Below, piece after piece: positions 1 through 29,740 of a DNA stretch of 64,000 nt (position 1 is the stretch's first letter; each line of letters opens with the position of its first letter). A program made the position numbers and the translations under genes. The notes under the pieces are model-generated. The model ran no database searches. It saw only the letters and a list, made by a program, of their open reading frames with translations, and was not told the DNA's origin. The stretch spans positions 1 to 64,000 of the forward strand of contig JBCCCR010000034.1 of the NCBI GenBank assembly GCA_039033415.1, given 5' to 3'. Origin of the DNA: Pseudomonadota bacterium (GTDB lineage: Bacteria; Pseudomonadota; Gammaproteobacteria; Xanthomonadales; SZUA-38).

Positions 1-235
1 GGAGCCCCCTTGGGCACCAATAACCGCGTTGCATCGCTTGCCAAGGGCTACGGCCATTGCCGGCGCGATGCGCCTTATTCTTGGCGCCCAACGGGGCTCT
101 GAAACGCAACAGACTTCTAACTCAGGACACTAGCCGCAACCGAACAAAATCGCTCGCTGGTCGAGTCGCTCATCGAGGAGATCGGTGCGTTTCTAGACTA
201 GCGCCCTGGGCTGGTTACCGCGCGCTAAGGATCAA
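1..235 (+). other. Left-edge stretch, possible decayed gene
   Basis: No intact gene is visible. Frame 1 reads a short segment with a G-x-x-x-G-T-N-N-R pattern and ends at TGA (100-102). After a second stop at 118-120 the same frame continues for 26 codons ending in a plausible helical tail (SLIEEIGAFLD) with a stop at 199-201. The GTNNR...GYG pattern loosely recalls the C-terminal end of some transposases, but too little is present to decide. It could be the degraded end of a gene lying left of the window. Confidence 0.2.
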
Positions 236-1423
236 TCAAGGCAGTTCGGCGACGCCAGCGTCCACCAGCGACTGGATGTCCTCAGCGGAATAACCCAATC
301 CTTCCAGCACCGACCGACCATCTGCCCCCGGGTGAGGCACCGGCATGCGAACGCCCAGGCGCTGCTGCCCGAGCTGGATCGGCATTGCCGGCAGCTTCGT
401 TTCGCCGCCGTCGGGCAAATCCAGGTCGAGTAATCCGCCCGAGGCGTTGAGATGCGGATCGTCGAACAGATCCTCCGGCTTGCCGATGGGCGCAAAAGGC
501 ACGCCACACTGGTCCAGCTCGTGCATCAACTCCGCCTTGTCCATCTCCATAAACCGCGCCTGAACTCGCGGGAGGATGACGTCGCGCTTACCCACCCGAT
601 TGCCGTTTTCCTTAAGCTCCGGGTCGTCCGCCAGGTCGTCCAGGCCAAAATGTCGAGTAAAGGTCTGCCACTGGCCATCGCTGACGACACCCACAAATAC
701 CTGATCGTCGCCTTGGCACTTGAAAACGTCATACACCGCCCAGGCTGAGACCCTTACGGGCATCGGCTGGGCCGGCTGGCCGGTCACCGCCATCTGCGCC
801 ATATGCTGGCCAACGAGGAATGCCGTCGTTTCAAACAGCGCACTGGTGACCTGTTGCCCTTGGCCGGTCGCCTGGCGCTGCTGCAGCGCCGCCAGCACGC
901 CAATGGCTCCGAACATACCGCCGGTCACGTCGATCACCGACGCTCCGGCCCGCAGCGGTCGGCCGGGTGGCCCGGTCATGTAGGCCAGGCCGCCCATCAT
1001 CTGCGTCACCTCATCCAGCGCCGTACGGTGTTCATACGGCCCGGCAAGAAAGCCGCGCGCTGAGCAGTAGATCAACCCGGGGTTTTCCGCCGAGAGGCTT
1101 TCGTAGTCAAACCCCAGCTTGTCCATCGCGCCGGGCCGAAAGTTCTCCAGCAAAACGTCAGCTTTCGTCGCCAGCGAGCGGGCGATCGCTTTTCCTTCGT
1201 CAGACTTGAGATTGAGGCACAGGCTTTGTTTGTTGCGGTTGTACATGGAGAAGTAGCCGGCCCCGGACCCTCGCAAACGCCGCGTCTTGTCCCCGCCGAT
1301 CGGTTCGATTTTGATGACGTCAGCGCCGAGATCCGCCAGCATCAGCCCCACAACCGGACCCATGACCATGTGCGAGAACTCCACGACGGAGATGCCGGAG
1401 AGCGGCAGATTGGTGTCATTCAT
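236..1423 (-). CDS. CaiB/BaiF-type (family III) CoA transferase
   Basis: Predicted cytoplasmic enzyme moving CoA between a CoA thioester and a carboxylic acid. Residues after the start read ISVVEFSHMVMGPVVGLMLADLGADVIKIEP, in parts the classic family III opening (active-site region plus ADLGADVIKIE). Further in are the family blocks NRNKQSLCLNLK, DVLLENFRPGAMDKLG and a GG-rich central stretch. At 395 aa the length is normal for the family. The ATG at 1423 is preferred over a TTG 11 codons upstream because family homology begins at the ATG. It is divergent from the HMG-CoA-lyase-like gene, which suggests joint work on an acyl-CoA intermediate. The acyl substrate cannot be read from sequence. 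Confidence 0.88.
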   Translation of the reverse strand: MNDTNLPLSGISVVEFSHMVMGPVVGLMLADLGADVIKIEPIGGDKTRRLRGSGAGYFSMYNRNKQSLCLNLKSDEGKAIARSLATKADVLLENFRPGAMDKLGFDYESLSAENPGLIYCSARGFLAGPYEHRTALDEVTQMMGGLAYMTGPPGRPLRAGASVIDVTGGMFGAIGVLAALQQRQATGQGQQVTSALFETTAFLVGQHMAQMAVTGQPAQPMPVRVSAWAVYDVFKCQGDDQVFVGVVSDGQWQTFTRHFGLDDLADDPELKENGNRVGKRDVILPRVQARFMEMDKAELMHELDQCGVPFAPIGKPEDLFDDPHLNASGGLLDLDLPDGGETKLPAMPIQLGQQRLGVRMPVPHPGADGRSVLEGLGYSAEDIQSLVDAGVAELP

Positions 1424-1456
1424 GGGCGGAATCCGGTTGGCTGAGGGATCGAGCAA

Positions 1457-1504
1457 ATATGTTATATGATTATATCATTAGGACAAAAACGCGATGTCAC
1501 TCCG
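1457..1504. promoter_or_regulatory. AT-rich divergent promoter with short palindrome
   Basis: This is the only strongly AT-rich stretch between the CoA transferase and the lyase. On the minus strand it contains a TATAAT (plus-strand 1469-1474), well placed as a -10 box for the transferase. The same bases form ATGAT-TAT-ATCAT (1466-1478), an interrupted palindrome that could be a repressor site. No regulator gene lies next to it. Confidence 0.4.
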
Positions 1505-2446
1505 ATGCCCGAATCCTCTTCTACACCTCAGATTCTGATCAGCGAAGTTGGCCCCCGAGATGGCCTGCAGAGCGTTTCCGCCATTATGCCGCTTGAGGCT
1601 CGCAAAGCCTGGGTAGCAGCAGAGGCTGCAGCCGGAGTCCGGGAGATCGAGGTGGGATCATTTGTTCCGGCCAAGGTCATCCCCCAGATGGCCGGAACTG
1701 CCGAGCTCGTTGCCTACGCCCGTACCATCCCCGACCTGACCGTCGCAGCGCTTGTGCCAAACCTGCGCGGCGCCCAGGACGCCATCGAGGCCGGCGCCCA
1801 CAAGATTTCGATTCCCTTTTCGGTCAGCGAAACGCACAGTCTGAAAAACGTTCGCCGAACACATGACCAGATGGTTGAGCAGGTTCGCGCGATTGCGGAG
1901 CTGGTCGCGCAGCAGCCGGAAGACCAGCGTCCACACTTTGAGGCGGGGCTCTCCACGGCTTTCGGCTGTACCCTGGAAGGGCCGGTGTCTGAAGATCTGG
2001 TTGTGCGCAGCGCAGAGCGATTGATCGAAGCCGGCTGCGCGGAAGTTGGACTCTCAGACACCACCGGCTACGCCAATCCGGCGCAGGTCCGGCGGCTGAT
2101 CCGCAAGGTGCGAAGCGCCGTCGGTGACGACAAGCTGACAGGCGTGCACCTTCACAACACTCGAGGCGTGGGCCTGGCTAACGCGCTGGCGGCCCTCGAT
2201 GAGGGCATCACGACGCTGGACAGCTCCCTTGGGGGTCTGGGCGGCTGTCCGTTTGCTCCCGGGGCCAGCGGCAACATCGTGACCGAAGACCTGGTTTTTA
2301 TGCTCGAAGCGATGGGCTTTAACACCGGCATCGATATCCCGGCGCTCATGAAGGTCCGAGACGTCGTGCACAACGCATTGCCGGATGAACCGCTGTATGG
2401 ATTTATCCCTGACGCCGGGCTGCCGCTAGGTTTCGCCCATGCCTGA
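1505..2446 (+). CDS. Hydroxymethylglutaryl-CoA lyase family protein
   Basis: DRE-TIM metallolyase that cleaves an HMG-CoA-like substrate into an acyl-CoA and a keto acid; in leucine catabolism the products are acetoacetate and acetyl-CoA. Visible motifs are GPRDGLQS near the N-terminus (catalytic Arg and metal Asp), HLHNTRG (metal-binding His pair) and GGCPFAPGASGN (mobile-loop catalytic Cys). The 313 aa length fits bacterial HMG-CoA lyases. The first possible start (1466) lies inside the palindromic promoter, so the ATG at 1505 is preferred, although no good ribosome site is seen for either. It overlaps the next gene by 8 bases. Other DRE-TIM lyases, such as citramalyl-CoA-type enzymes, are not excluded. 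Confidence 0.85.
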   Translation: MPESSSTPQILISEVGPRDGLQSVSAIMPLEARKAWVAAEAAAGVREIEVGSFVPAKVIPQMAGTAELVAYARTIPDLTVAALVPNLRGAQDAIEAGAHKISIPFSVSETHSLKNVRRTHDQMVEQVRAIAELVAQQPEDQRPHFEAGLSTAFGCTLEGPVSEDLVVRSAERLIEAGCAEVGLSDTTGYANPAQVRRLIRKVRSAVGDDKLTGVHLHNTRGVGLANALAALDEGITTLDSSLGGLGGCPFAPGASGNIVTEDLVFMLEAMGFNTGIDIPALMKVRDVVHNALPDEPLYGFIPDAGLPLGFAHA

Positions 2447-3002
2447 TACGCCGCTACGGCGGGTTAAGCCGGACCTGATGCCGGAGACGCTGCGCGCCAG
2501 CTGGGAAAAATCTCGCAACGTCCGCGGTGACGCCACCTTTATTGAGACCATGGCCAATGAACCGAGGCTTTTTGAGTGGTATCGGGATCAGTTTTATGGC
2601 CAGGTATTCCACGGCGGACGCGTACCCACCCGGCTTAAAGAGTTAGCCCGCTACCGTCTGTCGACCCGTCACGGCTGCCACTACTGCAATCAGGGCAATC
2701 GGCTCGACGCCCGGGCTGCCGGGCTCAACGATCAAGATCTGACCGCCATCGAAAACGATGAGCTGGACCATTTTTCCGGCCTTGACCGGGCGGTGTTGAT
2801 GCTCGCCGATCAGATGCTGCTGACCGAACATCAGGGGCAGCTCAAAGGTCCGGTCTACGACTCGCTAAGTTCATTTCTTGACGACGGACAGATCATTGAG
2901 CTGGGTATGACCCTGGCGGTCCTGACCGGTATGGCCCGCTTTCTGTTTGTTTTTGACCTGGTGGAGAAAGAGGCCAACTGCCCGTTTCACCTGGGGGATT
3001 AA
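2439..3002 (+). CDS. AhpD-like / carboxymuconolactone decarboxylase family protein
   Basis: Small all-helical AhpD-fold protein of 187 aa. The signature is RLKELARYRLSTRHGCHYCNQGN, in parts: a helix followed by CHYC (CxxC) and a downstream Asn, as in peroxidase-like AhpD proteins whose cysteines do thiol redox chemistry. The tail is hydrophobic (GMTLAVLTGMARFLFVFDLVE), as in the family. Its start codon lies inside the end of the lyase gene, so the two are translationally coupled. It may protect or reduce an intermediate of the CoA pathway, but that is inference. Confidence 0.8.
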   Translation: MPDTPLRRVKPDLMPETLRASWEKSRNVRGDATFIETMANEPRLFEWYRDQFYGQVFHGGRVPTRLKELARYRLSTRHGCHYCNQGNRLDARAAGLNDQDLTAIENDELDHFSGLDRAVLMLADQMLLTEHQGQLKGPVYDSLSSFLDDGQIIELGMTLAVLTGMARFLFVFDLVEKEANCPFHLGD

Positions 3003-3094
3003 GCTTTTCACACTTTCCAAACCCTGCCGCAGGCCCTACCATTGCCAGCCTTGACGGCAATTCGCGCCCGCCGCGGAAAAATAAGGAGCAGTTC

Positions 3095-3535
3095 GTGAGC
3101 GTAGGAGACTTCAGCAGCATTCTGAAATTTTTCGGCGGCAGCCAGCCCAGCCCGGAGGAACAGGAAGTCCTGTTCAAAGAAGCGGCCATGATGGCGCTCG
3201 CCAGGGCCACCAGCGCTGATACCAACATCAAGCAGGTAGAGCTCGAGCACGTGCAGGACCTGCTCCGTGAAGCGACCGGCGACGAGTACAGCATTGGCGA
3301 CATTCGAACCGCCGCCAAGTCGGAGGTGTTCGAGAGCCAGCCGCTGGAGAAATACCTGGCAGGCGTGGCCAAGAAGCTGGAAAACCACGACCGAATCAAG
3401 CTGATTCAGCTCGTCGGGCGTGTCATCCACGTCGACGACCGCGTCAGCCAGCTGGAAATCGACTACTTCAATCGCGTTGCGGCAGCGCTAAACGCCACGC
3501 CGGCAGATGTCCTCGGCCTGATTGCCGAGGACTAG
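3095..3535 (+). CDS. TerB-like domain protein
   Basis: A 146 aa, all-helical, acidic protein resembling TerB/tellurite-resistance-type domains, with conserved acidic helix starts such as MMALARATSADTNI and VGRVIHVDDRVS. The start is GTG at 3095 with an AAGGAG box 7 bases before it (3082-3087). Proteins of this fold are thought to bind divalent metal or act as scaffolds, and most have no defined function. It lies downstream of the AhpD-like gene after a 90-base gap, so it probably has its own promoter. No ter operon surrounds it, and a role in tellurite resistance should not be assumed. Confidence 0.65.
   Translation: MSVGDFSSILKFFGGSQPSPEEQEVLFKEAAMMALARATSADTNIKQVELEHVQDLLREATGDEYSIGDIRTAAKSEVFESQPLEKYLAGVAKKLENHDRIKLIQLVGRVIHVDDRVSQLEIDYFNRVAAALNATPADVLGLIAED
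3509..3532. terminator. Perfect 9-bp hairpin at convergent gene ends
   Basis: GTCCTCGGC and GCCGAGGAC are exact reverse complements separated by 6 bases. The stem ends one base before the TerB-like stop codon and sits between convergent genes, so it could stop transcription from both sides. There is no T run, so it is not a typical intrinsic terminator. Confidence 0.4.
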
Positions 3536-3545
3536 TTCGGAGGGG

Positions 3546-4145
3546 TCAGGTTCGGGCCATCCCGCGGATGACCCCGGGCCTCGATCCGATGTTAGCCGCC
3601 CAGCGCTGGATGTTGGGCCAAGGTGGCAGCGAATCGGGTAAGCGAGCGGCCGACGTTGCGGCGGACGGATACGCGAGCAGGTCGGTCACCGTCAGCTCAT
3701 CTCCCACCAGGTAGTCCCGAGCCGCCAGGTGCTCATCGAGCACCGCAAACAGGCGGCAGGCTGACTCGACGAAATAATCCACCGCCCGCGGGTCCTCCAG
3801 CGGGAATATCTCGCTGAACATAAACTGCCCGGCCAACGCGGGACTCAAGTCCGACGCGAGCATCCCGGCCCACTGATACATGTCCCGCCGTTCCGCCAGC
3901 GAATCCGGAATCAGCTTGCCGGCCTTTTCGCAAAGATAAAAAGCGATGGCCATGCTGCCGTAGACGGCCTCTCCCTCATCCAGCAGGAACGGCAGCTTGC
4001 CGAAGGGATTGAGCTTCAGCATTTCCGGGGTGCGGTGCTCTCCGGCAACTAGGTCTGCGGTTCGCGTTTCGTAGTCGAAACCGAGCTCTTCGAGCACCAC
4101 CTGGGCTTTCTGCCCGTTGGCCGTCGGAACGGTATAAAGGATCAT
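3546..4145 (-). CDS. Glutathione S-transferase family protein
   Basis: A 199 aa two-domain GST. The N-terminal thioredoxin-like half begins MILYTVPTANGQKAQVVLEE and contains the cis-Pro loop region NPFGKLPFLLDEG, followed by the gamma-Glu binding segment VYGSMAIAFYLCEKAG. The C-terminal helical half includes LVGDELTVTDLLAYP, the usual N-capping Asp region. It is the last gene of the leftward eight-gene operon, 10 bases after the VOC gene. Glutathione conjugation, isomerisation or dehalogenation of a pathway intermediate would fit the context. The substrate is unknown. Confidence 0.88.
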   Translation of the reverse strand: MILYTVPTANGQKAQVVLEELGFDYETRTADLVAGEHRTPEMLKLNPFGKLPFLLDEGEAVYGSMAIAFYLCEKAGKLIPDSLAERRDMYQWAGMLASDLSPALAGQFMFSEIFPLEDPRAVDYFVESACRLFAVLDEHLAARDYLVGDELTVTDLLAYPSAATSAARLPDSLPPWPNIQRWAANIGSRPGVIRGMART

Positions 4146-4155
4146 GGGTTAAGCC

Positions 4156-5016
4156 TCATTGGGTCACCAGCTCGAGCCATTCGCCGCTGGCTCCCACCAC
4201 CTGCGCCGCCAAAGCGTCACTGCCCGGCAGCCCGACCGCCGCCGAACCCGGTGGCAGTTCGCTGACAGAAAAACCCATCGAGATTATCCCGGCCGGCACT
4301 CCAGCGACCGTCGGCCTCTCATCGGCAGTAGGCATCTGATCGATCTCAACCAGGTAGCCGGGCGCCAGCGGCAGCGCGCAGATCGGGTGCCGGGTCTCAC
4401 GATCCAGATCAAAAGCAAGCGACAGGCCCTGTACCCGCGCGTCCACCAGCGGGGGGTCTGGCTCGAGCTGAAACTGCTTTCGGTACCACTGCTTCAAGGC
4501 ATCGCCATCCTGTCCCGCGACAATACCGACAAAACAATGGCCAACACCACGCTCGAGGATCGGTAGATCAAAGCCTGGGATGGGGGCTTTGATCTGAGTG
4601 AGATACAGCAGCTCACCGCCCGGACCTTCAACCTGCATAGCGCGGATGTCCTTGGAAATCGACAGCTCAGCCGGCGGCCCAAGAATGCGGAACGGCGACT
4701 CCCCCAGCGACTCGGCTAGAGTGTCCACGTCGGCGACGGCAATTTCCGCAGCGTTCCAGCCCGGGTAGCGGAACGGCACATAGCCCGGCGCAGCCTCCAC
4801 CTGCACAAAGCGCACAAAACCTGATTGTGCACCGCGAGGCAGCAGCTCCGCGCAGGGGGCGTCAGCCAGCGCCGGCGCGCTCCAGAGTTCGGCCAGTGAT
4901 CCAGCTGACCCTTCCCATCGTCGCTCATACTCAAGAAATGTCTCATAGCAGGAGACCGCAGCGCCGAGGTCGGGAACGCCAACCGTGAACCCCGCAATGA
5001 TCGGGAGGTGTGCCAT
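4156..5016 (-). CDS. VOC-family protein (paralogue A)
   Basis: A 286 aa protein with two vicinal-oxygen-chelate halves. It starts MAHLPIIAGFTVGVPDLGAAVSCY in parts, a typical betaalphabeta-beta-beta opening. It is clearly paralogous to the protein at 7677-8579: both share a GWNA-x-EI segment, a K-x-I-x-AMQ-x-x-GPG-x-ELLY-x-T-x-I segment and a similar second half. The usual metal-binding His/Glu set is not obvious, so dioxygenase, isomerase, lyase or binding roles are all possible. It lies 4 bases after the TRAP-type binding protein gene in the same operon. The two paralogues may form a heterodimer, which is inference. Confidence 0.75.
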   Translation of the reverse strand: MAHLPIIAGFTVGVPDLGAAVSCYETFLEYERRWEGSAGSLAELWSAPALADAPCAELLPRGAQSGFVRFVQVEAAPGYVPFRYPGWNAAEIAVADVDTLAESLGESPFRILGPPAELSISKDIRAMQVEGPGGELLYLTQIKAPIPGFDLPILERGVGHCFVGIVAGQDGDALKQWYRKQFQLEPDPPLVDARVQGLSLAFDLDRETRHPICALPLAPGYLVEIDQMPTADERPTVAGVPAGIISMGFSVSELPPGSAAVGLPGSDALAAQVVGASGEWLELVTQ

Positions 5017-5020
5017 GGGC

Positions 5021-6049
5021 CTAACCTCGCTCCCGGAAGGCCTGCTTGCCTTCCTGAATCAGGTTGTACACTTCCTGGGCCCGGCCGCCGATCTGCTCCA
5101 GCATCGCCTCGTGCGTCGCCAGGCCAACGGCTTTCCATTGCGCCATCTGCTCCGGACTGGGCTGGTGCATCGTGACCCCCAGCTCACCAAAGCCCTGCGC
5201 GATTCGGGCGATGTCTTCGCGAATGAGGCGACGCCCCTCAGCGGTTTCGTCCAGACTGCTCATGACCCGCGTTTGCCCCTCAGGACCCTGAGCCTCAAAC
5301 CAGTCGAGGTTGGCCACGGTGAGGCCCGTGTCGAGCGCATGGCGGGTGAGATTGAAGTGTTTGGCCTCGCGGGAGATGCCGCCGATGGCAAACATGCCGA
5401 TACCCCCCTGACCGCTGGCGATGAGCCCAGTTTGAAGCGACGGGATCACCTCAGAGAACGTCACCGGAATCAGGTCAGCGCCGATCGCCTCGCCAAAGAT
5501 CCGCGAACCGAGCGCATTGGATGACCGCATGGACAGCCCCGCAGCATCCTCGGGAGTCAGGATCGGTTTGCGCGCATAGATATGAAACCAGCCAACCTCA
5601 GACCACTGGAGCAGCGCCAGCCGCTTATCCGCCAGCAGCTCGCGAAACACCTCGGTGAGGTATTCATCGAGCACATAGTCCGCTTCAGCCTGGGTCTCAA
5701 AAAGATAGGGCGCCAGCAGCACGCTGAGCTCCGGCACCACCGTTGCCAGCCCCTGGAGCGAGAACCCGCTGATCTGGATTCGGCCGCGACGAACGTTGGA
5801 GAGCGCCGTTTCCTCGCTGCCGATCTGGCCGGTAATAAACAGGTCCAGCTTCATGTCCGCCGGCATCTGGGCCTCGAAGCGCTCACCAAACCGCAGCCAC
5901 ATGTCGTGCCAGGGGGTATTGGGTACCGCCAGCGAAGAGACTCGTATAACCTGCGTGCGCTCAGCCGTGCTCGGCTCTGCGTCGTCCCCGCAGCCGCTTA
6001 GCAAAACGATCAGCGTGATATTGGCGACTAGCGTTGTTAACGGCTTCAT
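5021..6049 (-). CDS. TRAP transporter solute-binding lipoprotein (DctP-like), orphan
   Basis: A 342 aa DctP-family binding protein. The first 20 residues form a lipoprotein signal with lipobox LLSGC (lipid Cys20). The family body is recognisable: VSSLAVPNTPWHDMW near the start, VRRGRIQISGFSLQGLATVVPEL, and the central block GLSMRSSNALGSRIFGEAIGA (quoted in part), which supplies the carboxylate-binding Arg in TRAP proteins. No DctQ/DctM membrane subunits occur in the window, so it is an orphan or serves a distant permease. It overlaps the hydrolase gene by 4 bases. It likely presents an organic acid to the pathway encoded around it, or senses it. Confidence 0.85.
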   Translation of the reverse strand: MKPLTTLVANITLIVLLSGCGDDAEPSTAERTQVIRVSSLAVPNTPWHDMWLRFGERFEAQMPADMKLDLFITGQIGSEETALSNVRRGRIQISGFSLQGLATVVPELSVLLAPYLFETQAEADYVLDEYLTEVFRELLADKRLALLQWSEVGWFHIYARKPILTPEDAAGLSMRSSNALGSRIFGEAIGADLIPVTFSEVIPSLQTGLIASGQGGIGMFAIGGISREAKHFNLTRHALDTGLTVANLDWFEAQGPEGQTRVMSSLDETAEGRRLIREDIARIAQGFGELGVTMHQPSPEQMAQWKAVGLATHEAMLEQIGGRAQEVYNLIQEGKQAFRERG

Positions 6050-7680
6050 CCATTCACCCTCAGCAGCTCAAGCGCCGCGTGTGCGTGTGCCGACGCCGCA
6101 GCGTTTAGGTCGGACACCGTTTGAAGTCGCGCAGCGGCGCTCGATTCCGGGCGCCCTTCGATACCGGTCGTCAACTTGGCCTCGCCCAGGAGACTCGAGA
6201 GCTCACTCTCGATCGCTGCCCGCCATAACCCGGTCGCATGCTCGCCGCAGCGGAGCGCGTCAAAGAGCTGCTGCTGAAGCGACTCGGGATCGGGCGGCCT
6301 CGTCGATCGGACCGCGCCGTTTGCGGTGTTGTCATACCAGGGAAAAAACAACTGAGCGTGACGCAGCTGTCGCCAGCGGCGAAGCAGGTGGGCTCCGCAG
6401 TCGTCCATCGGCAGGAGCGGCCACCATCGCGCCGCATCGAGTGGAACCCCGTCAGGACAAAGCGGTTGGTGCAGAGCAACCGGCACCGCCGGCGTCAGGT
6501 TCTGCATGTGAGCGGCGATCGCCGCCGCCCCGCCCAGGGCAACCAGACCCAGACAATGCTCATCCACAAACTGTTCATGGACTGCGCGCGCGATGGCCTC
6601 GAGATCATCAGCCGCCGCCTGCAGCGGGCCGGTCTCGCCATGAAACGGCAGATCGGGGAGCACCACTCGGTAGGCGTCGTCGCCGGCTTTTTGCAGCTCG
6701 GCGGCAAATTCAGCGGCGCTGTCTCCCGAGCCGCCCAGGTCGTGCAGCAGCAGGAGAGATCGATCGGCGTCTCCAAATTGACGAACACGCCATTGGCCGA
6801 ACTCGTCGCCGACAAAGCTATCGACCCGGCACGGCGTGGGCTCGACAGCCTCCAGCGCCGGCCCTGCCGTCACCTGGTCAAAGATCTCCCGCACCCGCGC
6901 CCGCACCACCTCAGGATTCATGTCGATAGACTCGATGCTCACACCCTCGGGGACGCCGCTCAGGCGGTCTGCCGTGTTCTCCAGTGGGTCTCCGCGGCGG
7001 AACAGGATATGGCACGGTCGGGTGATCCGCTCCGCCACCGGGACCGCATCCCAGGAAAAGGCGGCGCCGTAGCCAATCTTGTAGTCTTCACCGGCGTAGA
7101 GGTAATCGTGAATATAGCCATCCCAAACCTCGGGCGGTGCCTGGTTAAGCGTCATGCGCGCGGCCGGACGCTGATCAAACCAGGGAAAGAAAATGGTCTG
7201 CTCGGCGATCTTGCCCCACAGTTGGATCAGGTGGCTGCCATCCCAGCGCGGTGGGTTGGGCTCAAAATATCCCGAGAGAATGTGCGCCTGCTCCAGCTGA
7301 TTAAACGCCGGCACGCCGTCGAGCACCATGTGGGCGACCGCATCGGGATGTTGGTCGGCCAGCGCCATGGCAATCTGCGCACCGGTGTGCACACCCATCA
7401 CCAGCGCCTGGCGGATCCCCAGTTCCTCCAGCACCCGCTGCAGGTTATCGGCAAAGTCCGCGATCCTGGGCTGGTCTTGCGGCAGGAGATCCGAGAGACC
7501 AAAACCCGGCGTGTCGGGCGCGACAACCAGGTATTTTGGCGCCAGCTCCTCCATCAGCGTCAGCTGCGTGGCGGAAGTCTGGGGCGACTGATGAAGCAGC
7601 AGCACCGGCGGGCCGCTGCCGGCGTAGCGCAGGTGATTGCGCCGACCGTCGATCTCAATGATCTGGCGGCGAATGCTCAC
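6046..7680 (-). CDS. Tandem-duplicated alpha/beta hydrolase with HTG elbow
   Basis: A 544 aa protein made of two alpha/beta-hydrolase lobes, about twice the normal family length. Lobe 1 (about 1-275) has an oxyanion-region LLHQSPQTS, the DTPGFGLSD strand-loop and a nucleophile elbow reading GVHTG (96-100), so His98 stands where Ser is expected. Lobe 2 (about 295-544) has LLLHDLGGSGD but its elbow is degraded to ALGGAAA (381-387). Both lobes carry a matching cap motif, FFPWFD (164-169) and FFPWYD (445-450), which shows an internal duplication. It overlaps the genes on both sides by 4 bases. Lobe 2 is probably structural. Reaction unknown; ordinary esterase chemistry is doubtful. Confidence 0.8.
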   Translation of the reverse strand: MSIRRQIIEIDGRRNHLRYAGSGPPVLLLHQSPQTSATQLTLMEELAPKYLVVAPDTPGFGLSDLLPQDQPRIADFADNLQRVLEELGIRQALVMGVHTGAQIAMALADQHPDAVAHMVLDGVPAFNQLEQAHILSGYFEPNPPRWDGSHLIQLWGKIAEQTIFFPWFDQRPAARMTLNQAPPEVWDGYIHDYLYAGEDYKIGYGAAFSWDAVPVAERITRPCHILFRRGDPLENTADRLSGVPEGVSIESIDMNPEVVRARVREIFDQVTAGPALEAVEPTPCRVDSFVGDEFGQWRVRQFGDADRSLLLLHDLGGSGDSAAEFAAELQKAGDDAYRVVLPDLPFHGETGPLQAAADDLEAIARAVHEQFVDEHCLGLVALGGAAAIAAHMQNLTPAVPVALHQPLCPDGVPLDAARWWPLLPMDDCGAHLLRRWRQLRHAQLFFPWYDNTANGAVRSTRPPDPESLQQQLFDALRCGEHATGLWRAAIESELSSLLGEAKLTTGIEGRPESSAAARLQTVSDLNAAASAHAHAALELLRVNG

Positions 7681-8579
7681 TCAGCCGCCGGCGGATCTTC
7701 GACCAGCTCGACATATTCTCCGGCCGCCCCTTTTAGCACCACGCTCCGCCGACCGTTGTAGGGAGCGCCAGGGTTAGCGGCCGGAATGCCGAGCCAGCGT
7801 TCTCGATAGGGTGAAATGTCGTCCACCAGGAACGTCACCATCGCGATACCCCCAGGCATCCCTTCTGAGGTTGGCGAACGGCTCGCGGCCTCGTCGGGAT
7901 AGTCGTCCAGCTCCAGCAGGAAGCGCTGCGACAAAGGCACAATCGTCAGCGGATACATGGTGTCGTCAGGCACACCCCAGGCGCGTGACAGTACGCTCAC
8001 CTTATAGTCGTAAGGACCATTCACTGGCATCCCCAGCGTATCGCGATAAAACGTATCGATCGCGGTGCGATCGCGCGCGGCCAGTACCATGATGAACACC
8101 CGGTCCACCGGGCTTGTGGCCGGCAGCAGCCCGAAGCCCGAGTTGTCGGGCGTGATGCGCGTAAAGTAGAGCAGTTCGTTGCCGGGCCCGATGGCCTGCA
8201 TGGCCTTGATGCGCTTCTGCTCGGTCAGAAAGTTTGGCTGGCCAATCACCTCAAAGTGAGGGCTCGCTTCGAGGCGGAGGTTGAGCGCATCCGGGTCCTC
8301 CACCAGGATTTCGATGGCGTTCCAACCTTCGGTCTTGAGCGGCTCGTAGTTGCCCTGGTCGGGCGTCTGGACAAATCGGAGATAGACCGGCTCATTGCTT
8401 TCAGGCTGGATGATCTCGAACGGGTTGTCGGCCACGTCCGGCGCGTTCCAGCTGGCTGCGAGCACGGCGCCCACCTCACCGCTCGCAACCTCCTGATAGT
8501 TGAGAGTGTCCTGGTAAATGTCAGCGACCTGATTCGGGTCGCTGACCATGACGGTAACCATCAGGATCGCTTTCAGCAT
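7677..8579 (-). CDS. VOC-family protein (paralogue B)
   Basis: A 300 aa two-module VOC/glyoxalase-fold protein starting MLKAILMVTVMVSDPNQVADIY, in parts a standard first beta strand and helix. It shares the GWNAIEI and KRIKAMQAIGPGNELLYFT segments with the VOC protein at 4156-5016, so the two are paralogues within one operon. The second module begins near VDRVFIMVLAARD. It overlaps the nitrilase-fold gene by 7 bases and the hydrolase gene by 4, so translation is coupled. Metal-ligand residues could not be placed with confidence and the activity is unknown. Confidence 0.75.
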   Translation of the reverse strand: MLKAILMVTVMVSDPNQVADIYQDTLNYQEVASGEVGAVLAASWNAPDVADNPFEIIQPESNEPVYLRFVQTPDQGNYEPLKTEGWNAIEILVEDPDALNLRLEASPHFEVIGQPNFLTEQKRIKAMQAIGPGNELLYFTRITPDNSGFGLLPATSPVDRVFIMVLAARDRTAIDTFYRDTLGMPVNGPYDYKVSVLSRAWGVPDDTMYPLTIVPLSQRFLLELDDYPDEAASRSPTSEGMPGGIAMVTFLVDDISPYRERWLGIPAANPGAPYNGRRSVVLKGAAGEYVELVEDPPAAE

Positions 8580-9625
8580 GGCGTGATAATACCCCGCTCC
8601 AGAAGGCGGCCAATGGCGGCCGCCTGTTGATCGACAAAAAACTTCCGCTCCGGCACCTGATACCCGTCGGGCTGACTTAACCCGTTGGCCGCATGGATCG
8701 GCTCGCCGGCATAAATGTGCTCGAACAGCTCCAGCCGCTGGCGGGAAAGCAGATTCGGCATGCCGGGGCGGTTGCGGTAGCGGCGCAACGACGCCAGGTC
8801 GAGCGCCCCCGTCGCGGCGCAGGTTTCGCCGGTGCCGGCCTCGGCCATCACCGCGCCCTTGTAGTCCAGCACCTTCGACATGCCGTCGGTGGAGTTCACG
8901 GGAATCCCCGCCTGATAAAGACCGGCGCTGTTGGCCGAGACGACATAAGCGAGGTTCTCCATGGCCCGCGCCCGCTTGGCAATGTCTTTTGGCGTCAGCA
9001 TTGGGCTCCCCATTTCGCTGGTGGAATGGGTCAAGACCTCGGCTCCGCGGAGCGCCAGCGCTCGACTGATCTCCGGATAAAGAATCTCTTCAGACGCCAC
9101 GCAGGCGATTCGTCCGAGCACGGTGTCGGCCACCGGGAAGACGCCCTCAATGCCGTACCGGTCCAGGTAGGCGTCCCACACATCATGGGGCGTTGGCGCA
9201 TACATCGAGATCAATCGACGATAGCGCAGCACCACGTCGCCGTTGTCGGCGATGAGAAAGCAGGTCTGAAAATAGATGTCCGAAAAGTGCGGGTCGACCT
9301 CATACGCGTTGCCAGCGATAAAAACCTGATTGTCCACCGCGACTTTGCCCAGCGCCTCGTACTCCGGGCCGTCGATCTCGATCGCCGCCAGCGCTTTCCA
9401 GGCGGGAATCGGTTCGCCCGCCGGATAGCAGGTGAGAAAGTACTCCGGCAAAACGATCAGCCGCACGTCGGGCCCGGTGAACAGCTTGGCAGCGCGGATC
9501 TGGACCGCAATGGCATCGATGGTTTCGAGCATGCGGGCGCGCGCCTGCTCGTGGGTCATGCCGTTTACCGCATGACAGGCGGTTTGCAGCGCAATGGCCT
9601 GATACGCGGGATGGTCGGTAGCCAT
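8573..9625 (-). CDS. Nitrilase-fold (CN hydrolase) protein with altered triad
   Basis: A 350 aa protein of the carbon-nitrogen hydrolase superfamily. The catalytic Glu is present in VLPEYFLT (Glu61). The Lys position, normally in an Y-R-K context, reads RYRRL (Arg137). The nucleophile region, normally C-x-D-x-x-x-P-E, reads SEEILYPE, which places Ser178 at the Cys position; a Cys occurs three residues earlier (Cys175). The segment APTPHDVW resembles nitrilase-related amidases. Amide or nitrile hydrolysis by the usual Glu-Lys-Cys mechanism is therefore uncertain, and a shifted Cys175 or a non-hydrolytic role are alternatives. It is the third gene of the eight-gene operon. Confidence 0.8.
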   Translation of the reverse strand: MATDHPAYQAIALQTACHAVNGMTHEQARARMLETIDAIAVQIRAAKLFTGPDVRLIVLPEYFLTCYPAGEPIPAWKALAAIEIDGPEYEALGKVAVDNQVFIAGNAYEVDPHFSDIYFQTCFLIADNGDVVLRYRRLISMYAPTPHDVWDAYLDRYGIEGVFPVADTVLGRIACVASEEILYPEISRALALRGAEVLTHSTSEMGSPMLTPKDIAKRARAMENLAYVVSANSAGLYQAGIPVNSTDGMSKVLDYKGAVMAEAGTGETCAATGALDLASLRRYRNRPGMPNLLSRQRLELFEHIYAGEPIHAANGLSQPDGYQVPERKFFVDQQAAAIGRLLERGIITPC

Positions 9626-10338
9626 CAGCGCTCGAGTTCAACCAGCTCGTAGAAGGTTTGCATGTAGCCACCGACGGCGCCGCGCACAAAGATGTAGTCG
9701 TCGTCCGCCGTGCACCACACCTCGTACGGGGGGTGCTCTTCCGGCAGGCCACCCTCAGCGGTGTCGGTGTACTGGAATTTGTGGCAATCGAACGTCCCGG
9801 CCGGCACTTCAATCGTTTCGTCACCGAGATACTCGAGCCCGAAGCCAACCTTAAACAGCAGCGGCCCGGTGGCGCCACGATGGTCTGGGGAGGTCAGCAT
9901 CATGTTGGGGAAGTATTGCTTCCTGGGACCTGACTGATCGAAGACCGCAAAACACATCCCGTCCGCTACGAGCGGATGGGTTCCCAGCCATGGCACGGGC
10001 TGATCCAGGTCCATCCGCTGGCTCAATCTGCCGTCACGCTGGTTGTAGGACTCACACTCGGCCACCCTGTCGGTGAAGCGGAACCAGGCGGTGCCTTCAA
10101 ACTTGTCAGCGATTGTCAGCCGATTAAAGCAGTCGACGGGCCTCCAGTTCTTGTCCCAGCTGACAGTCACATCACGGAGCACCGAAGGGGCGTCGTCGAT
10201 TTCGCAGTGAGCCCGCAGCGTGCGCGCACCGTCGCCGTGGACGGTGACAATAAAACTCTCCCGGCCGCGTTCATGGCCCATGCGCTCCGGCTTGGTGCTG
10301 GTGTAAAGGAGTTTTCCGCGAATCGTTCGATGGTCCAT
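9625..10338 (-). CDS. Conserved hypothetical beta-rich protein (DUF3108-like?)
   Basis: A 237 aa soluble protein without signal peptide or membrane segment. Alternating strands and the segment ETIEVPAGTFDCHKFQY resemble DUF3108-type beta barrels, but the match is by eye only. Aromatic and acidic residues are frequent. Its last base is shared with the start of the nitrilase-fold gene, and it begins 2 bases after the membrane-protein gene, so it is firmly part of the operon. It could be a lipid- or ligand-binding barrel. The function is not known. Confidence 0.65.
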   Translation of the reverse strand: MDHRTIRGKLLYTSTKPERMGHERGRESFIVTVHGDGARTLRAHCEIDDAPSVLRDVTVSWDKNWRPVDCFNRLTIADKFEGTAWFRFTDRVAECESYNQRDGRLSQRMDLDQPVPWLGTHPLVADGMCFAVFDQSGPRKQYFPNMMLTSPDHRGATGPLLFKVGFGLEYLGDETIEVPAGTFDCHKFQYTDTAEGGLPEEHPPYEVWCTADDDYIFVRGAVGGYMQTFYELVELER

Positions 10339-10340
10339 AG

Positions 10341-11003
10341 TTAAGTTCCGATGATGTGTAAGCCAAGCATGGCGTTGATCAAAAGCCCCACCCAGATCGT
10401 GACGACAAAAGGTTTCACCTTACGCAACGAGGCTTTGATGGTGGCGTTGACCTCGTCGTCAGGCCCGACGGTAACAAGCTTGCCGAAGGCAGGCCCAAAC
10501 GGTTTCAGGTTGACCCGGATCAGCAGCCCCATGGTCATCAAACCCGCAAAGACGATCAGCTTCCAGGCAAACCAGTCGGCGCGGATCAGCTCACCACCCG
10601 CGAGCGTGTAGCCGGCCAATGCCAGCAGGGCGGTAATCACCAGGACCCTACCCCACCAGTCAACCTTCGTCAGAATGACGGCCTGACCGTGGCTGATATG
10701 CAGCTTGATCACGGTGGCCACCCAGAGGAGGCCGAAGATCCACAGCCCGACCACCGACACCATGGACATGTCAACGATGCCCAGCCGCCAGGCGATGTGA
10801 AATCCCACCGGCAACGACAGCGCCATGCAGATCCGGGGCGCCTGGTCGACAAACAGCATGATGTCCGCCGCCGTCCGGCGCGCCTCGACGCTCCGCGAGT
10901 CGTCGGCGATGTATTTGCTGGAATAGAAGACGCCCAGGTCGCCGCCCAGCCAGTACACAAACAGCAGCAGATGAAAGAGCTTTAGCAGCAGGATTTCGGA
11001 CAT
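10341..11003 (-). CDS. Integral membrane protein, CopD/DUF2269-like
   Basis: A 220 aa protein with about six hydrophobic segments: roughly 5-22, 60-80, 85-105, 118-137, 148-165 and 200-218. Histidines lie in or near the helices (LKLFHLLLFVYWLGGD, VIKLHISHGQ), as in CopD/haem-binding four- to six-helix proteins. It has no signal peptide, and the first helix acts as the anchor. It is the first gene of the eight-gene operon, 31 bases downstream of the palindrome at 11034-11059. A redox or transport role for the pathway substrate is possible but not shown. Confidence 0.65.
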   Translation of the reverse strand: MSEILLLKLFHLLLFVYWLGGDLGVFYSSKYIADDSRSVEARRTAADIMLFVDQAPRICMALSLPVGFHIAWRLGIVDMSMVSVVGLWIFGLLWVATVIKLHISHGQAVILTKVDWWGRVLVITALLALAGYTLAGGELIRADWFAWKLIVFAGLMTMGLLIRVNLKPFGPAFGKLVTVGPDDEVNATIKASLRKVKPFVVTIWVGLLINAMLGLHIIGT

Positions 11004-11033
11004 CGCGTAGGATCCGAGGGAGAGAGGCGGAAT

Positions 11034-11059
11034 TGTACTAAAAGTATAACTTTAGTACA
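11034..11059. promoter_or_regulatory. 9-bp inverted repeat, candidate operator
   Basis: TGTACTAAA and TTTAGTACA are exact reverse complements with an 8-base AT-rich spacer (AGTATAAC). The site lies in the 92-base gap between the leftward eight-gene operon (first start 11003) and the rightward metal-transporter-like gene (start 11096). Size and symmetry fit a dimeric TetR/GntR/MarR-type operator. No adjacent regulator gene is present. Confidence 0.6.
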
Positions 11060-11095
11060 GTTTCGTCTCCCTTCGAAAACCGGCATCGACGACCT

Positions 11096-11812
11096 TTGGA
11101 CTGGCTGACCCCCGAGATTGCAGCCCTCTCCGCGACCGCGGTGACCATCGCGTTTGTCCATACTCTGCTGGGACCCGATCACTACCTCCCTTTTGTCGCC
11201 CTCAGCAAAGCGCGCGGCTGGACCGTTAAAAAAACGCTGGCGATTACGGCTGGCTGCGGCCTGGGTCATGCAGCCGGTTCGGTGGCGCTGGGTTTTATCG
11301 GCATCGCGCTGGGCACAGCCCTCAGCACCATGACCGGCATTGAAAGCTGGCGCGGCGATCTGGCGGCCTGGGGACTCACCGCGTTCGGCGTTGTGTATCT
11401 GGCAATCAGCCTAAAACGGCCGGCCAGGAAGCAGCGCCACAGTCACCCTCACGTACATGCCGACGGCACCGTGCATCAGCATGCCCACGATCATCATGGC
11501 GTTCACGTCCATGCTCATGAAGAGGCCAGGAGCAGCAACGTGTCCTGGGCGATCTTTATTGTGTTTGTGCTGGGGCCTTGCGAAGCGTTAATCCCGCTGT
11601 TGATGGTGCCGGCGAGTCAGAGCGACATGGCTGGAGTGTGGCTGGTCACCGGGCTGTTCGTCTCGGTTACGCTCGTAACGATGCTGGCTGCCGTGGCGCT
11701 GTCGCTGGTTGGCCTGAAACAGGTCAGGCTCCCCGCCATCCAGCGCTATGGCGGCGTGGTGGCCGGCGCTGCTATCTGCTGCTGTGGTCTGGCGATGCTG
11801 GCCGGACTTTAG
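11096..11812 (+). CDS. UreH/RcnA-like membrane transporter with His-rich loop
   Basis: A 238 aa polytopic membrane protein with about six helices. HTLLGPDHYLPF near residue 22 matches the His/Asp first-helix motif of the nickel/cobalt transporter and UreH/SafE-type superfamily. The cytoplasmic-type loop at 115-141 contains 12 His in 27 residues, alternating with Val, Ala and Asp, a metal-binding pattern. CEALIPLLM marks the second half-repeat. The start is TTG at 11096; no ATG or GTG is available upstream in frame. It is divergent from the eight-gene operon across the palindrome. Ni, Co or Zn movement is likely; metal and direction are unknown. Confidence 0.75.
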   Translation: MDWLTPEIAALSATAVTIAFVHTLLGPDHYLPFVALSKARGWTVKKTLAITAGCGLGHAAGSVALGFIGIALGTALSTMTGIESWRGDLAAWGLTAFGVVYLAISLKRPARKQRHSHPHVHADGTVHQHAHDHHGVHVHAHEEARSSNVSWAIFIVFVLGPCEALIPLLMVPASQSDMAGVWLVTGLFVSVTLVTMLAAVALSLVGLKQVRLPAIQRYGGVVAGAAICCCGLAMLAGL

Positions 11813-11820
11813 CGGGCCGC

Positions 11821-12630
11821 TTATAACAGCGGCATCACGTCGATCGGCTGTCGATCAGGGTCGTCTGCCAGAAGACCGCGCAAGATCGCAATATGCCCCT
11901 GACCGCCGATAACCACCACCCTTGACCCCGGCGTCGCGTGCCGCTGCACGTTGGCGTACATCCGGAAGTTTCGATGCCACCAGCTGGCTGCCGCATCCGC
12001 GCCGACAAAATCCTCTCCCGCACCTAGGTGGTTAGTCAGGAGATAGAACGATCGATTCCGCTGATCCTCCGCGGGGCTATTGTGGTCGTGCAGCAGTTCC
12101 GCCAATGGCAAGGTCGCCTGCTTTCGGTTGGTTTCCTCGGTGATTTCCGCAATGAGTGCGTCGAGCCTGGCCTTGGTCTCCGGATCAGATTCAATGCGCT
12201 TAAAGAGTTCTTCAGCTTCCCAGCCCACCTCGCGCTCATCGAAGGGGTGCACCTCTTTGAGGTTCGCCAGCGCCGCGACGCGAAATCCCAGCTGATAGAT
12301 TTCGTTGTGTGTGAGCTCAAAACTTCCGGCGCGATAGCCCTCGTACTCAGCCTGCATCTCCTGCTGCATGGCCGGATCGTACTCAAGCAGCACGCTCGTC
12401 GGCTTGAGCGCCGCGATCCGCTGGCTCAGCGCCTGAAGATAAGCCTGATTTTCGTCCGTCATCACGTCTAGGACATCGGTCTTGACCACGTCCTGGCCAG
12501 GATTATGGAAATGGAACAGGCCGATGAGCAGCACCTGTGCGGGCGGCTCATCAGCGGCCAGAGCGGGCGATGCGAGCGCCAGCAGGGTGGTCAGTGTCGT
12601 GCAGCGCAGAAGAAAACCCTTTCCGATCAT
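11821..12630 (-). CDS. Secreted DUF5694-family protein
   Basis: A 269 aa protein with a Sec signal peptide (residues 1-25, cleavage near ALA-AD). The mature part opens QVLLIGLFHFHNPGQD, then SVLLEYDP, and ends with RVVVIGGQGHIAILRGLL (quoted in parts). This GxxHF...E...GxGH layout is typical of DUF5694 and distantly of TraB/ChaN-like folds, where His and Glu may bind metal or haem. It probably acts in the periplasm. It is convergent with the transporter gene, 8 bases between stops. No substrate can be named. Confidence 0.75.
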   Translation of the reverse strand: MIGKGFLLRCTTLTTLLALASPALAADEPPAQVLLIGLFHFHNPGQDVVKTDVLDVMTDENQAYLQALSQRIAALKPTSVLLEYDPAMQQEMQAEYEGYRAGSFELTHNEIYQLGFRVAALANLKEVHPFDEREVGWEAEELFKRIESDPETKARLDALIAEITEETNRKQATLPLAELLHDHNSPAEDQRNRSFYLLTNHLGAGEDFVGADAAASWWHRNFRMYANVQRHATPGSRVVVIGGQGHIAILRGLLADDPDRQPIDVMPLL

Positions 12631-12697
12631 CGTTGAAGCTCCGGCCGTTGCTGTACGGATCGTCGCGCTGCGACACCGCCACGTCTACGGTCTAAAG

Positions 12698-13504
12698 TCA
12701 CACAGGCGCTGCGCTTCGAACGTAGGCCGCGACCGCCTCAACCCACTCGTGAGGGCGCTGATCCACGATGTCGATAGCGCCGCCCTCGATAGCGACAAAA
12801 TCGAAGTCCGGGCGCAGCTCGTGGGACCATTTGGCGTGCTCGTAGATCTGATCGCCGGTGTTGGTCAGGATCAGCGTAGGGTGCGTGATTTGGCTGAGCG
12901 TTCTCGCGTGGTCGTAGGCAAAAGCGGCGTTGTGCCCGTACCAAAACGGGCCGAAGCCCTGCAGTTGTTCAACGACGTATCGGGTCACCAGGGCGGGATC
13001 GGTGCCCTCTCCGGCCCACTGGTAGCGGTTGGCGTAAAGGCTCGACAGATGGCTGCCGTCCACGTGGTGCTCAAAGCCCTTTTCGTTGTCTTCCACCATG
13101 TTGATGAACGCCTGCCGCTCATCATGCTTCAGCGGAACCGGGCCGTTGAGAATCAGGCGCTGCACCCGATCAGGAAACTGCAGCGCCACCTCGGTCACGA
13201 TCAGCGCCCCCGTGTGGTGACCGAGCAGGACGGCCTGATCGATGCTCAGCTGATCGAGCACCGGCGGCACGGCCTGAGCATAGTCAGAAACCGAGGGCAC
13301 AAAGTCCGGCGCGTCGGACAGACCGAAACCCGGTGTGTCGATGCCCACCGCTCTTAGCCCCTGATCCCGGAGCAGCGGATAGACCGTGTCGAACTGCCGC
13401 AGCGTCATCGGTGCCTGATGGCACAAGATCAGGGGCGGACCATCACCCTGGGTATCCATAAAGTGAACCTGGCCAAATGGTCCGTCCGCGTAGCCTCGTT
13501 TCAT
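12698..13504 (-). CDS. Alpha/beta hydrolase, single-domain HTG type
   Basis: A 268 aa cytoplasmic alpha/beta-hydrolase. The oxyanion region is LCHQAPMT, the strand-loop is DTPGFGLSD, and the elbow is GHHTG (95-99), placing His97 where the nucleophile Ser is expected. These features are the same as in lobe 1 of the double hydrolase at 6046-7680, so the two belong to one subfamily. The acid (ILTNTGDQIY) and the late-His region look present. It is transcribed alone. Ordinary Ser-esterase chemistry is not supported by the elbow. The activity is unknown. Confidence 0.8.
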   Translation of the reverse strand: MKRGYADGPFGQVHFMDTQGDGPPLILCHQAPMTLRQFDTVYPLLRDQGLRAVGIDTPGFGLSDAPDFVPSVSDYAQAVPPVLDQLSIDQAVLLGHHTGALIVTEVALQFPDRVQRLILNGPVPLKHDERQAFINMVEDNEKGFEHHVDGSHLSSLYANRYQWAGEGTDPALVTRYVVEQLQGFGPFWYGHNAAFAYDHARTLSQITHPTLILTNTGDQIYEHAKWSHELRPDFDFVAIEGGAIDIVDQRPHEWVEAVAAYVRSAAPV

Positions 13505-13685
13505 CGTTGAACCCCCTTACTGTCCGATTCTTAGCCCACGACCTGTTTCCGCCGGCTCGGCTGCCTACATCATAAGGCTCGTCAGAGGTTGCTCAAAAAG
13601 CCGTCGTCTTAAAGGTGGTGAGACGAATCTGCACCCGGCCGCGTCCCATGGCTCAACGAGAAGGGACTTACAGAGGCGAAAAATC

Positions 13686-21954: not shown

Positions 21955-22656
21955 TTAGCGCCCCATATCGAAGAGCAGTACCTCGGCGTCACTGACGCCC
22001 TCGATCTCATGGCGATCCGCGCCGGTCATCGCGACACCGTCTCCAGCCTTCAGGGTTTTTCCGTTCAGCCTGACCGAGCCGCGCGCGACCTGGAGCCAGC
22101 CGTTTCGCTGCGCTGCCAGCTCAAACTCCACCTGATCACCCGCATCGAGCAGTGAGGCGTAGAGGTCCACGTCCTGATGGATCGTGACCGAACCGTCCCG
22201 GCCGTCGCGGGAACCGACGAGACGCAGCTTGCCGCGCTTTTCGGCATGGGTGAAGGCCTTTTGCTCGTAGCTGGGCTCCAGCCCCTTCTTTTCCGGCATG
22301 ATCCAGATTTGCAGGAAGTGCACCGGGTCAACGTCGGAAGCGTTGTATTCGCTGTGCCGCACGCCGGTGCCCGCAGTCATGCGCTGCACGTCACCCGGGC
22401 GGATCACCGATCCGGTGCCGAGGCTGTCCTTGTGCTCCAGCGCACCGTCCAGCACGTAGGAAATAATTTCCATGTCGCTGTGGCCGTGAGTATCGAACCC
22501 CTTACCAGGCTGCACCTGATCTTCGTTGATCACCCGCAGCGGCCCAAAACCCATAAATTGTGGGTCGTAATAATGGCCAAAGGAAAAGGTGTGCCGGCTG
22601 TCCAGCCAGCCAAAGTTAGCGACGCCGCGTTCGTTTGCCGGTCGAATTGCAAGCAT
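21955..22656 (-). CDS. Pirin family protein (YhaK/quercetinase-like)
   Basis: A 233 aa bicupin. It starts MLAIRPANERGVANFGWLDSRHTFSFGHY in parts; the FSFGHYYDP and GFDTHGHSDMEIISYVLDGALEHKDS elements (quoted in parts) supply the iron-binding His and Glu of pirins. The ATG at 22656 is chosen because GAAGGAG precedes it by 7 bases; a TTG five codons earlier would overlap that site. Pirins act as redox regulators or quercetin dioxygenases. It is divergent from the DUF1838 gene and convergent with the symporter. Confidence 0.9.
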   Translation of the reverse strand: MLAIRPANERGVANFGWLDSRHTFSFGHYYDPQFMGFGPLRVINEDQVQPGKGFDTHGHSDMEIISYVLDGALEHKDSLGTGSVIRPGDVQRMTAGTGVRHSEYNASDVDPVHFLQIWIMPEKKGLEPSYEQKAFTHAEKRGKLRLVGSRDGRDGSVTIHQDVDLYASLLDAGDQVEFELAAQRNGWLQVARGSVRLNGKTLKAGDGVAMTGADRHEIEGVSDAEVLLFDMGR

Positions 22657-22744
22657 GATGTGCTCCTTCAAATTCGTCGCTAATTGATGGGAGCTATTTT
22701 CGACTATCCTTCAATAGATAACAATAATACAGATAACTGACATT

Positions 22745-22765
22745 TTGTCGCCCTTACGACGACAA
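22745..22765. promoter_or_regulatory. Short inverted repeat in pirin/DUF1838 gap
   Basis: TTGTCG and CGACAA are separated by 9 bases in an AT-rich, 200-base gap between two divergent genes. The gap also has an AT-rich run (22712-22735) that could hold the pirin promoter. The symmetry is short and could be chance. Confidence 0.25.
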
Positions 22766-22857
22766 TTAAAACAACCAGTAGTCCCACGAGTTCGTTTTGC
22801 GACGTCGAGTTTCCCGAGTATGGTGTGCGCTGATCACCATTTCTTGAGGCCGTGCTC

Positions 22858-24229: not shown

Positions 24230-24267
24230 TCGGCGCGCAAGCACAACGATCACCATAGGGTTCATTG

Positions 24268-29654: not shown

Positions 29655-29740
29655 TCGCTGAAACCTAAACCGCAAAGCCTCAGTAGGTCCCATCGAGTCG
29701 CAATTCAGCCGCTGGCCCTCCAGGCTCGGAAGGAGTGGGC

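Follow-up and report, generated by a model that had tools for sequence, protein, structure and literature searches.

When nicotinate is broken down anaerobically through 2,3-dimethylmaleate, a hydratase of the aconitase family acts on an alkylmaleate. The degradation of itaconate and citramalate, as set out in the accessible part of its description (PMC12290011), employs a coenzyme A (CoA) transferase, a hydratase and a citramalyl-CoA lyase. Here, an eight-gene operon is described from a 64,000-nucleotide stretch of gammaproteobacterial DNA, referred to throughout as the window (assembly GCA_039033415.1, contig JBCCCR010000034.1, positions 1 to 64,000). The source genome (labelled G000) comprises 6.4 Mb in 62 contigs, and the window belongs to its contig C34. 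On balance, the operon is probably one transcription unit of a dispersed, undescribed catabolic regulon that would end in an alkylmalate, its CoA ester and a lyase, and the best reading of this regulon is that it is mobile. An earlier note, made from the sequence alone, knew of no pathway with this exact set, and the literature agrees as far as open papers go, as no description of the gene set was found there among the matches listed.

The operon and its altered catalytic residues

The operon is a leftward run of eight genes at 3546-11003. All eight open reading frames are present, and the junctions along the direction of transcription measure +2, -1, -7, -4, -4, +4 and +10 bases, so that the tight packing noted earlier holds, from an overlap of 7 to a gap of 10 bases. 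The genes form a genuine operon, which is part of a larger set than first stated. The first gene, COPD (10341..11003, minus strand, as for all eight), encodes a small membrane protein in which five segments are hydrophobic, followed by BETA (9625..10338), a DUF3108 member by a narrow margin (27.4 bits, cut-off 26) that has invariant charged residues and in which no hydrophobic segment was found. Next come the nitrilase-fold protein NIT (8573..9625), the two-domain VOC protein VOC B (7677..8579), the double alpha/beta-hydrolase-fold protein dABH (6046..7680), a TRAP solute-binding lipoprotein of the DctP family (5021..6049; 128.7 bits, with a lipoprotein-type leader LSGC visible in the sequence) and a second two-domain VOC protein, VOC A (4156..5016), which shares 36% identity with VOC B. 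The last gene, GST (3546..4145), is glutathione transferase-like, with both GST_N and GST_C scoring above their cut-offs. Profile scores mostly uphold the family names first given; two were changed, as the "beta-rich" protein became BETA, the marginal DUF3108 member, and the "CopD-like" COPD matched no Pfam or NCBIfam model at E 0.01. Over positions 1-13600, sigma-70-like promoters were as frequent as expected (3 seen against 3.1), and 18 terminator-like sites were seen against 10.7 expected, none of them convincing downstream of GST.

NIT belongs to the nitrilase fold by its CN_hydrolase score (96.7 bits, cut-off 23.2) and resembles the aliphatic amidases of the nitrilase superfamily in its 45.7-bit match to AmiE (2uxy). 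It differs from them at the positions which, from the AmiE alignment, we take to be catalytic: Arg stands at the Lys position and Ser at the Cys position, so that E61, R137 and S178 replace the Glu-Lys-Cys triad. This Glu-Arg-Ser combination is kept in 9/9 NIT sequences of at least 50% identity, namely seven aligned sequences, one from G926 (another class of the same phylum) and one from Nonomuraea. Among four distant nitrilase-fold proteins of the source genome, the R137 column holds Lys in all four and the S178 column holds Cys in two. Strong relatives of NIT occur in 3 of 398 genomes of the phylum. Elsewhere in the source genome, a 697-aa open frame (L002, contig C2, ~91.6-93.3 kb) has two nitrilase-like domains, the second of which retains Lys and Cys, and two further nitrilase-fold proteins (L004 on C2 and L006 on C1) are apparently missing the catalytic Cys.

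The first domain of dABH has the elbow GVHTG, without the Ser, Cys or Asp nucleophile of alpha/beta hydrolases, and the second domain has no GxSxG. A family search yielded 25 first or single domains, near-identical copies included, in which the elbow residue is His in 20, Ala in 4 and Ser in 1; the elbow is kept as H-T-G or A-T-G, and the sole Ser case is a separate, unrelated gene of the window (29735-30598). A second alpha/beta-hydrolase-fold gene, with GHHTG in place of a Ser elbow, lies near the operon but outside it (12698-13504, minus strand), and has a 49% relative in locus L075 together with BETA-like and lyase genes. The VOC pair scores weakly against Glyoxalase (VOC A 18.3 and VOC B 23.2 bits, cut-off 20.6). 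In an alignment of 17 sequences, with the metal ligands (presumably two His and one Glu) placed by eye, Arg predominates in the first His column, where VOC A and one relative have His, no His was seen in the second, and the C-terminal Glu is mostly retained. A sequence search of the PDB with VOC B gave no match, and structure models of VOC B (4 sequences) and BETA (2 sequences) were unusable, with mean predicted local distance difference test (pLDDT) values of 42.8 and 32.7.

Judged from these alignments, three enzyme types (NIT, hydrolase and VOC) are consistently without their normal catalytic residues, the VOC proteins less firmly; the earlier claim of non-textbook residues in at least two types is thereby confirmed for NIT and the hydrolase. 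Since 9/9 NIT sequences and 24/25 hydrolase first domains have lost the nucleophile or triad, NIT and the hydrolase-fold proteins could be inactive pseudoenzymes, serving as sensors, scaffolds or ligand carriers, while CaiB, HMGL and the LeuCD-like hydratase (described below) and oxidases alone are catalytic. Yet the replacing residues are themselves invariant (R137 and S178 in NIT, H-T-G or A-T-G in the hydrolase), which suggests use rather than decay, and BETA, itself probably an enzyme, retains 41 invariant columns across 10 sequences. The pseudoenzyme explanation is accordingly regarded as rather unlikely.

Operator-like sites and a candidate regulator

A palindrome of the form TGTACTAAA-N8-TTTAGTACA at 11034..11059, a putative operator, lies between the operon and a divergent NicO-like gene. 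It is the single match in the window at up to 3 mismatches (mean of shuffles 0.00), no second copy was found in the genome at up to 2 mismatches, and it recurs exactly, at the same place, in G001, a genome of the same genus. A second putative operator (1457..1480), between the CaiB and HMGL genes, has a near-identical counterpart at the same place in G003, a genome of the same family. The common form of these sites, about TAATGTTATAACATTA, was derived by eye from the promoter regions of related loci. In 26 loci picked by protein similarity (434,151 bases), 17 operator-like sites were found at up to 2 mismatches, where 20 simulations averaged 0.75 and the reversed pattern gave 1; across seven whole genomes there were 36 sites against 13 for the reversed pattern. 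When scored with a matrix built from 22 sites outside the window, the palindrome (21.4) and the CaiB/HMGL gap (19.9) stand above the next position in the 64 kb (12.2), a ranking that is partly same-site conservation because the matrix includes G003 sites at corresponding places. The best score in 60 simulated windows was 15.3, and none of the 60 reached the palindrome.

Further sites precede the LeuC/VOC genes on contig C29 and the DUF1838 gene on contig C5 of the source genome, the CaiB/HMGL genes in genome G505, and the COPD, DUF1838/ALDH and DUF1330 genes in G003, these being loci that were retrieved for their sites or for a GntR gene. Sites lie upstream of 14 of 82 core genes against 20 of 349 others (p 0.0015), a biased comparison that is not relied on: it includes motif-fetched loci, omits L063, L064, L065, L067, L072 and L074, and scores several module genes as "other". 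Within the window, the stretch 21955-24846 holds Pirin/quercetinase-like, DUF1838, DUF1330 and thioesterase genes; this DUF1838 gene has no upstream site, while its relatives elsewhere have operator-like ones.

Homologs of GntR regulators are encoded on contigs C29 and C50 of the source genome. The one on C29, a GntR/UTRA gene with a 1-mismatch site, adjoins a pair of LeuCD-like genes and a cupin gene, so that the genome combines a regulator with sites upstream of members, as in HutC/GntR-UTRA regulons. The HutC-type repressor encoded there probably binds the palindrome and the related sites, and would release them in the presence of the compound or an intermediate. The upstream palindrome is plausible as the point of control, as first proposed, and it belongs to a family of operator-like sites at related loci. 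At the second GntR/UTRA gene (L108 10774-14584, contig C50), HMG-CoA-synthase-like, CaiB and HMGL-like genes adjoin.

The same type of operator occurs at the palindrome and at the CaiB/HMGL promoter, and the unit therefore reaches 236-2446. CaiB (236..1423, minus strand) encodes a CaiB-type CoA-transferase that scores above no NCBIfam cut-off among the models listed; its first ATG is at 1423, and with the TTG start listed at 1456 the gene would abut the operator. HMGL (1505..2446, plus strand) belongs to the 3-hydroxy-3-methylglutaryl-CoA (HMG-CoA) lyase family, with 273.7 bits against the subfamily cut-off of 246 and the Cys loop GLGGCP; it starts with ATG at 1505, an alternative start at 1466 falling inside the operator. 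An AhpD-like gene (2439..3002, plus strand) overlaps HMGL, and its 52% homolog in G505 adjoins module genes. On the other side, the NicO-like membrane protein gene (11096..11812, plus strand) faces the same operator as the operon and recurs with module genes. Elsewhere in the window, 16079-18106 and 25819-29082 encode a DUF3604 protein and a Tricorn-protease-like protein.

Recurrence in genomes and on plasmids

In G001 the eight genes retain their order and strand with 82 to 97% identity, and among the genomes examined the exact set occurs only there and in the source genome. Outside the genus it is divided and rearranged; in G003, GST-VOC A-TRAP and BETA-NIT-VOC B form separate blocks within one region. 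Several wider loci add further genes, for CaiB, HMGL, LeuCD-like proteins, TRAP membrane subunits, amidohydrolase, CoA ligase and flavin oxidase, and the view of the exact eight-gene set as the unit is not supported as first stated. BETA is present in 7 of 369 genomes of the class and 9 of 299 of the order (the source genome counted), with no match in viral contigs, and relatives of VOC B are present in 11 of 121 genomes. Around 22 BETA loci besides the window, partner families were recorded 120 times, a mean of 5.5 of 16 (VOC 15, CaiB 13, FAD oxidase 11, HMGL 10, LeuC 10, GntR 9, hydrolase 8, COPD 7 and NIT 5), against 8 presences in 11 control stretches, three of which had been retrieved for PDA genes.

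The association extends to plasmids. In a collection of 72,556 records, the window BETA and the VOC protein of plasmid pJE1 each match the same 8, at a distance of 2.4-2.5 kb from one another, and three of these records have additional BETA places. All five clusters examined from these records (pJE1, pTomTYG65b, pSA1, Novosphingobium RL4 and N. humi G5) have the order VOC-hydrolase-COPD-BETA, and COPD homologs stand beside BETA in gammaproteobacterial genomes and in 5/5 sphingomonad clusters examined. These sphingomonad clusters share with the window locus the VOC, hydrolase, COPD and BETA genes, mostly together with CaiB, HMGL, LeuCD, FAD oxidase and GntR, and differ by extra PuuE-like and isochorismatase-like hydrolases and a TonB receptor; no description of their function was found in the literature searched. 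On pTomTYG65b, which is predicted to be conjugative, a cluster near-identical to that of pJE1 (L138 9951-41632) sits on another plasmid type, which suggests recent transfer.

Several observations weigh against a single dispersed regulon. The GST and TRAP proteins accompany the set only in G000, G001 and G003, which belong to one family, and clusters of the pJE1 type have no NIT, GST or TRAP protein. The partner count around BETA is inflated, as several reference proteins derive from the counted loci, and some BETA loci are poor in partners, with none in L069 and one each in L033, L066 and L072. With regard to the sites, five of the counted loci are those from which the motif was originally taken by eye, and they contain 9 of the 17 sites (8 lie elsewhere); the source genome alone has 5 sites against 4 for the reversed-pattern control, and the window sites depart from the consensus at 3 of 14 positions. 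Detoxification often involves GST and VOC families, and the exact set is confined to one genus among the genomes examined, as might be expected if the neighbours had no common pathway and formed a local stress or detoxification operon whose catabolic resemblance stems from common enzyme families. This is very unlikely in view of the associations that recur across classes and plasmids and of the shared operator-like sites, and a dispersed catabolic regulon is preferred.

A candidate route and its relation to known systems

The substrate of this regulon looks like a branched organic compound, which would enter through a TRAP transporter with its binding protein encoded in the operon and its membrane parts elsewhere. 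The DctP component is present and DctQM do not adjoin it; a lipoprotein alone cannot perform uptake. Orthologs of the DctQ and DctM neighbours in G003 (63% and 79%) lie on contig C1 of the source genome at ~263 kb, and the genes after them, for an amidohydrolase and an AMP ligase, keep the order seen in G003. From that gene order they are likely the partners of the binding protein, conditionally so because the genome has another TRAP system (L109). The catabolic role originally suggested is plausible. NIT, the VOC and hydrolase-fold proteins and BETA may carry out upstream ring-opening or rearranging by non-standard chemistry, to yield an alkylmaleate-type diacid. The LeuCD-like hydratase would convert the alkylmaleate to an alkylmalate, the CaiB transferase would form its CoA ester, and the HMG-CoA-lyase-like enzyme would cleave this to an acyl-CoA and a 2-oxo acid. 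A separate leuA-leuC-leuD-leuB cluster on contig C11 serves leucine synthesis, and the LeuCD-like pair on C29 is not the biosynthetic one; in the PDB, its LeuC-like subunit is related to isomerases of isopropylmalate/citramalate and of homoaconitate, and to aconitases.

The same tail could complete an ordinary aromatic or terpenoid pathway, with the VOC proteins as ring-cleaving dioxygenases, GST as an isomerase and an FMO as a Baeyer-Villiger enzyme. Some loci do hold FMO genes (closest in NCBIfam to the pentalenolactone type, at 211 bits where the cut-off is 1100) and others for FAD_binding_3 hydroxylase, AMP ligase and amidohydrolase. Most VOC members, however, are without the expected His-His-Glu at what we take to be the ligand positions, none of the Pfam-scanned proteins was recognised as a canonical ring-cleaving dioxygenase, and the hydrolase has no Ser, so that such a pathway appears doubtful. 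Gentisate-type ring cleavage was dropped, a dioxygenase not having been recognised. Steroidal glycoalkaloid breakdown, considered on account of strain TomTYG65, was also set aside; TonB, isopropylmalate, GntR and CoA lyase do not occur as terms in the accessible part of PMC10653915.

A more specific proposal is that the regulon is a route for alkylated five-membered nitrogen rings (such as the maleimides, hematinic acid and lactam fragments derived from chlorophyll, heme and bilins), in which cyclic-imide or lactam opening would lead through alkylmaleate and alkylmalate to an acyl-CoA and a 2-oxo acid, and the Glu-Arg-Ser nitrilase and His-elbow hydrolase would be new catalytic types of old folds. 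Both pJE1 and pTomTYG65b encode two PuuE-allantoinase-like proteins, an isochorismatase-family protein and a lyase akin to methylisocitrate and 2,3-dimethylmalate lyases; pJE1 additionally has hydantoinase/oxoprolinase genes, and in G015, G026 and G926 the PuuE-like genes are close to NIT or BETA. Maleimides and hematinic acid are given as products of chlorophyll and heme in the accessible part of PMC7318184. That these genes and products point to a nitrogen-ring substrate is a guess, and the proposal as a whole is distinctly improbable. Membership of an ISOC-PDA2-PDA1 trio in the regulon is not supported in the source genome, where it lies elsewhere with no site (up to 3 mismatches) in the surrounding 20 kb.

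If a dispersed regulon is the true reading, it would offer a pathway open to testing, which sphingomonads carry in compact form on plasmids, and a probable regulator and operator, as well as three enzyme families in which the active sites, though altered, have been kept and are not decaying. It would also assign functions to DUF3108-like and Ser-less hydrolase proteins that are currently without any, and could reveal the recycling of a widespread branched or nitrogen-ring compound.

With regard to known systems, the 2,3-dimethylmaleate branch of nicotinate breakdown has a parallel in the sphingomonad clusters, which also contain a lyase with 2,3-dimethylmalate lyase and petal death protein among its PDB relatives. 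Near the window such a lyase was not found, and CaiB and HMGL would take its place. The itaconate/citramalate route, as far as the accessible part of its description extends, is similar to the proposed regulon in the transfer of CoA to a branched diacid, in hydration and in the cleavage of a tertiary-alcohol acyl-CoA, whereas the regulon has a LeuCD-like hydratase, a lyase of the HMG-CoA lyase family and many upstream genes.

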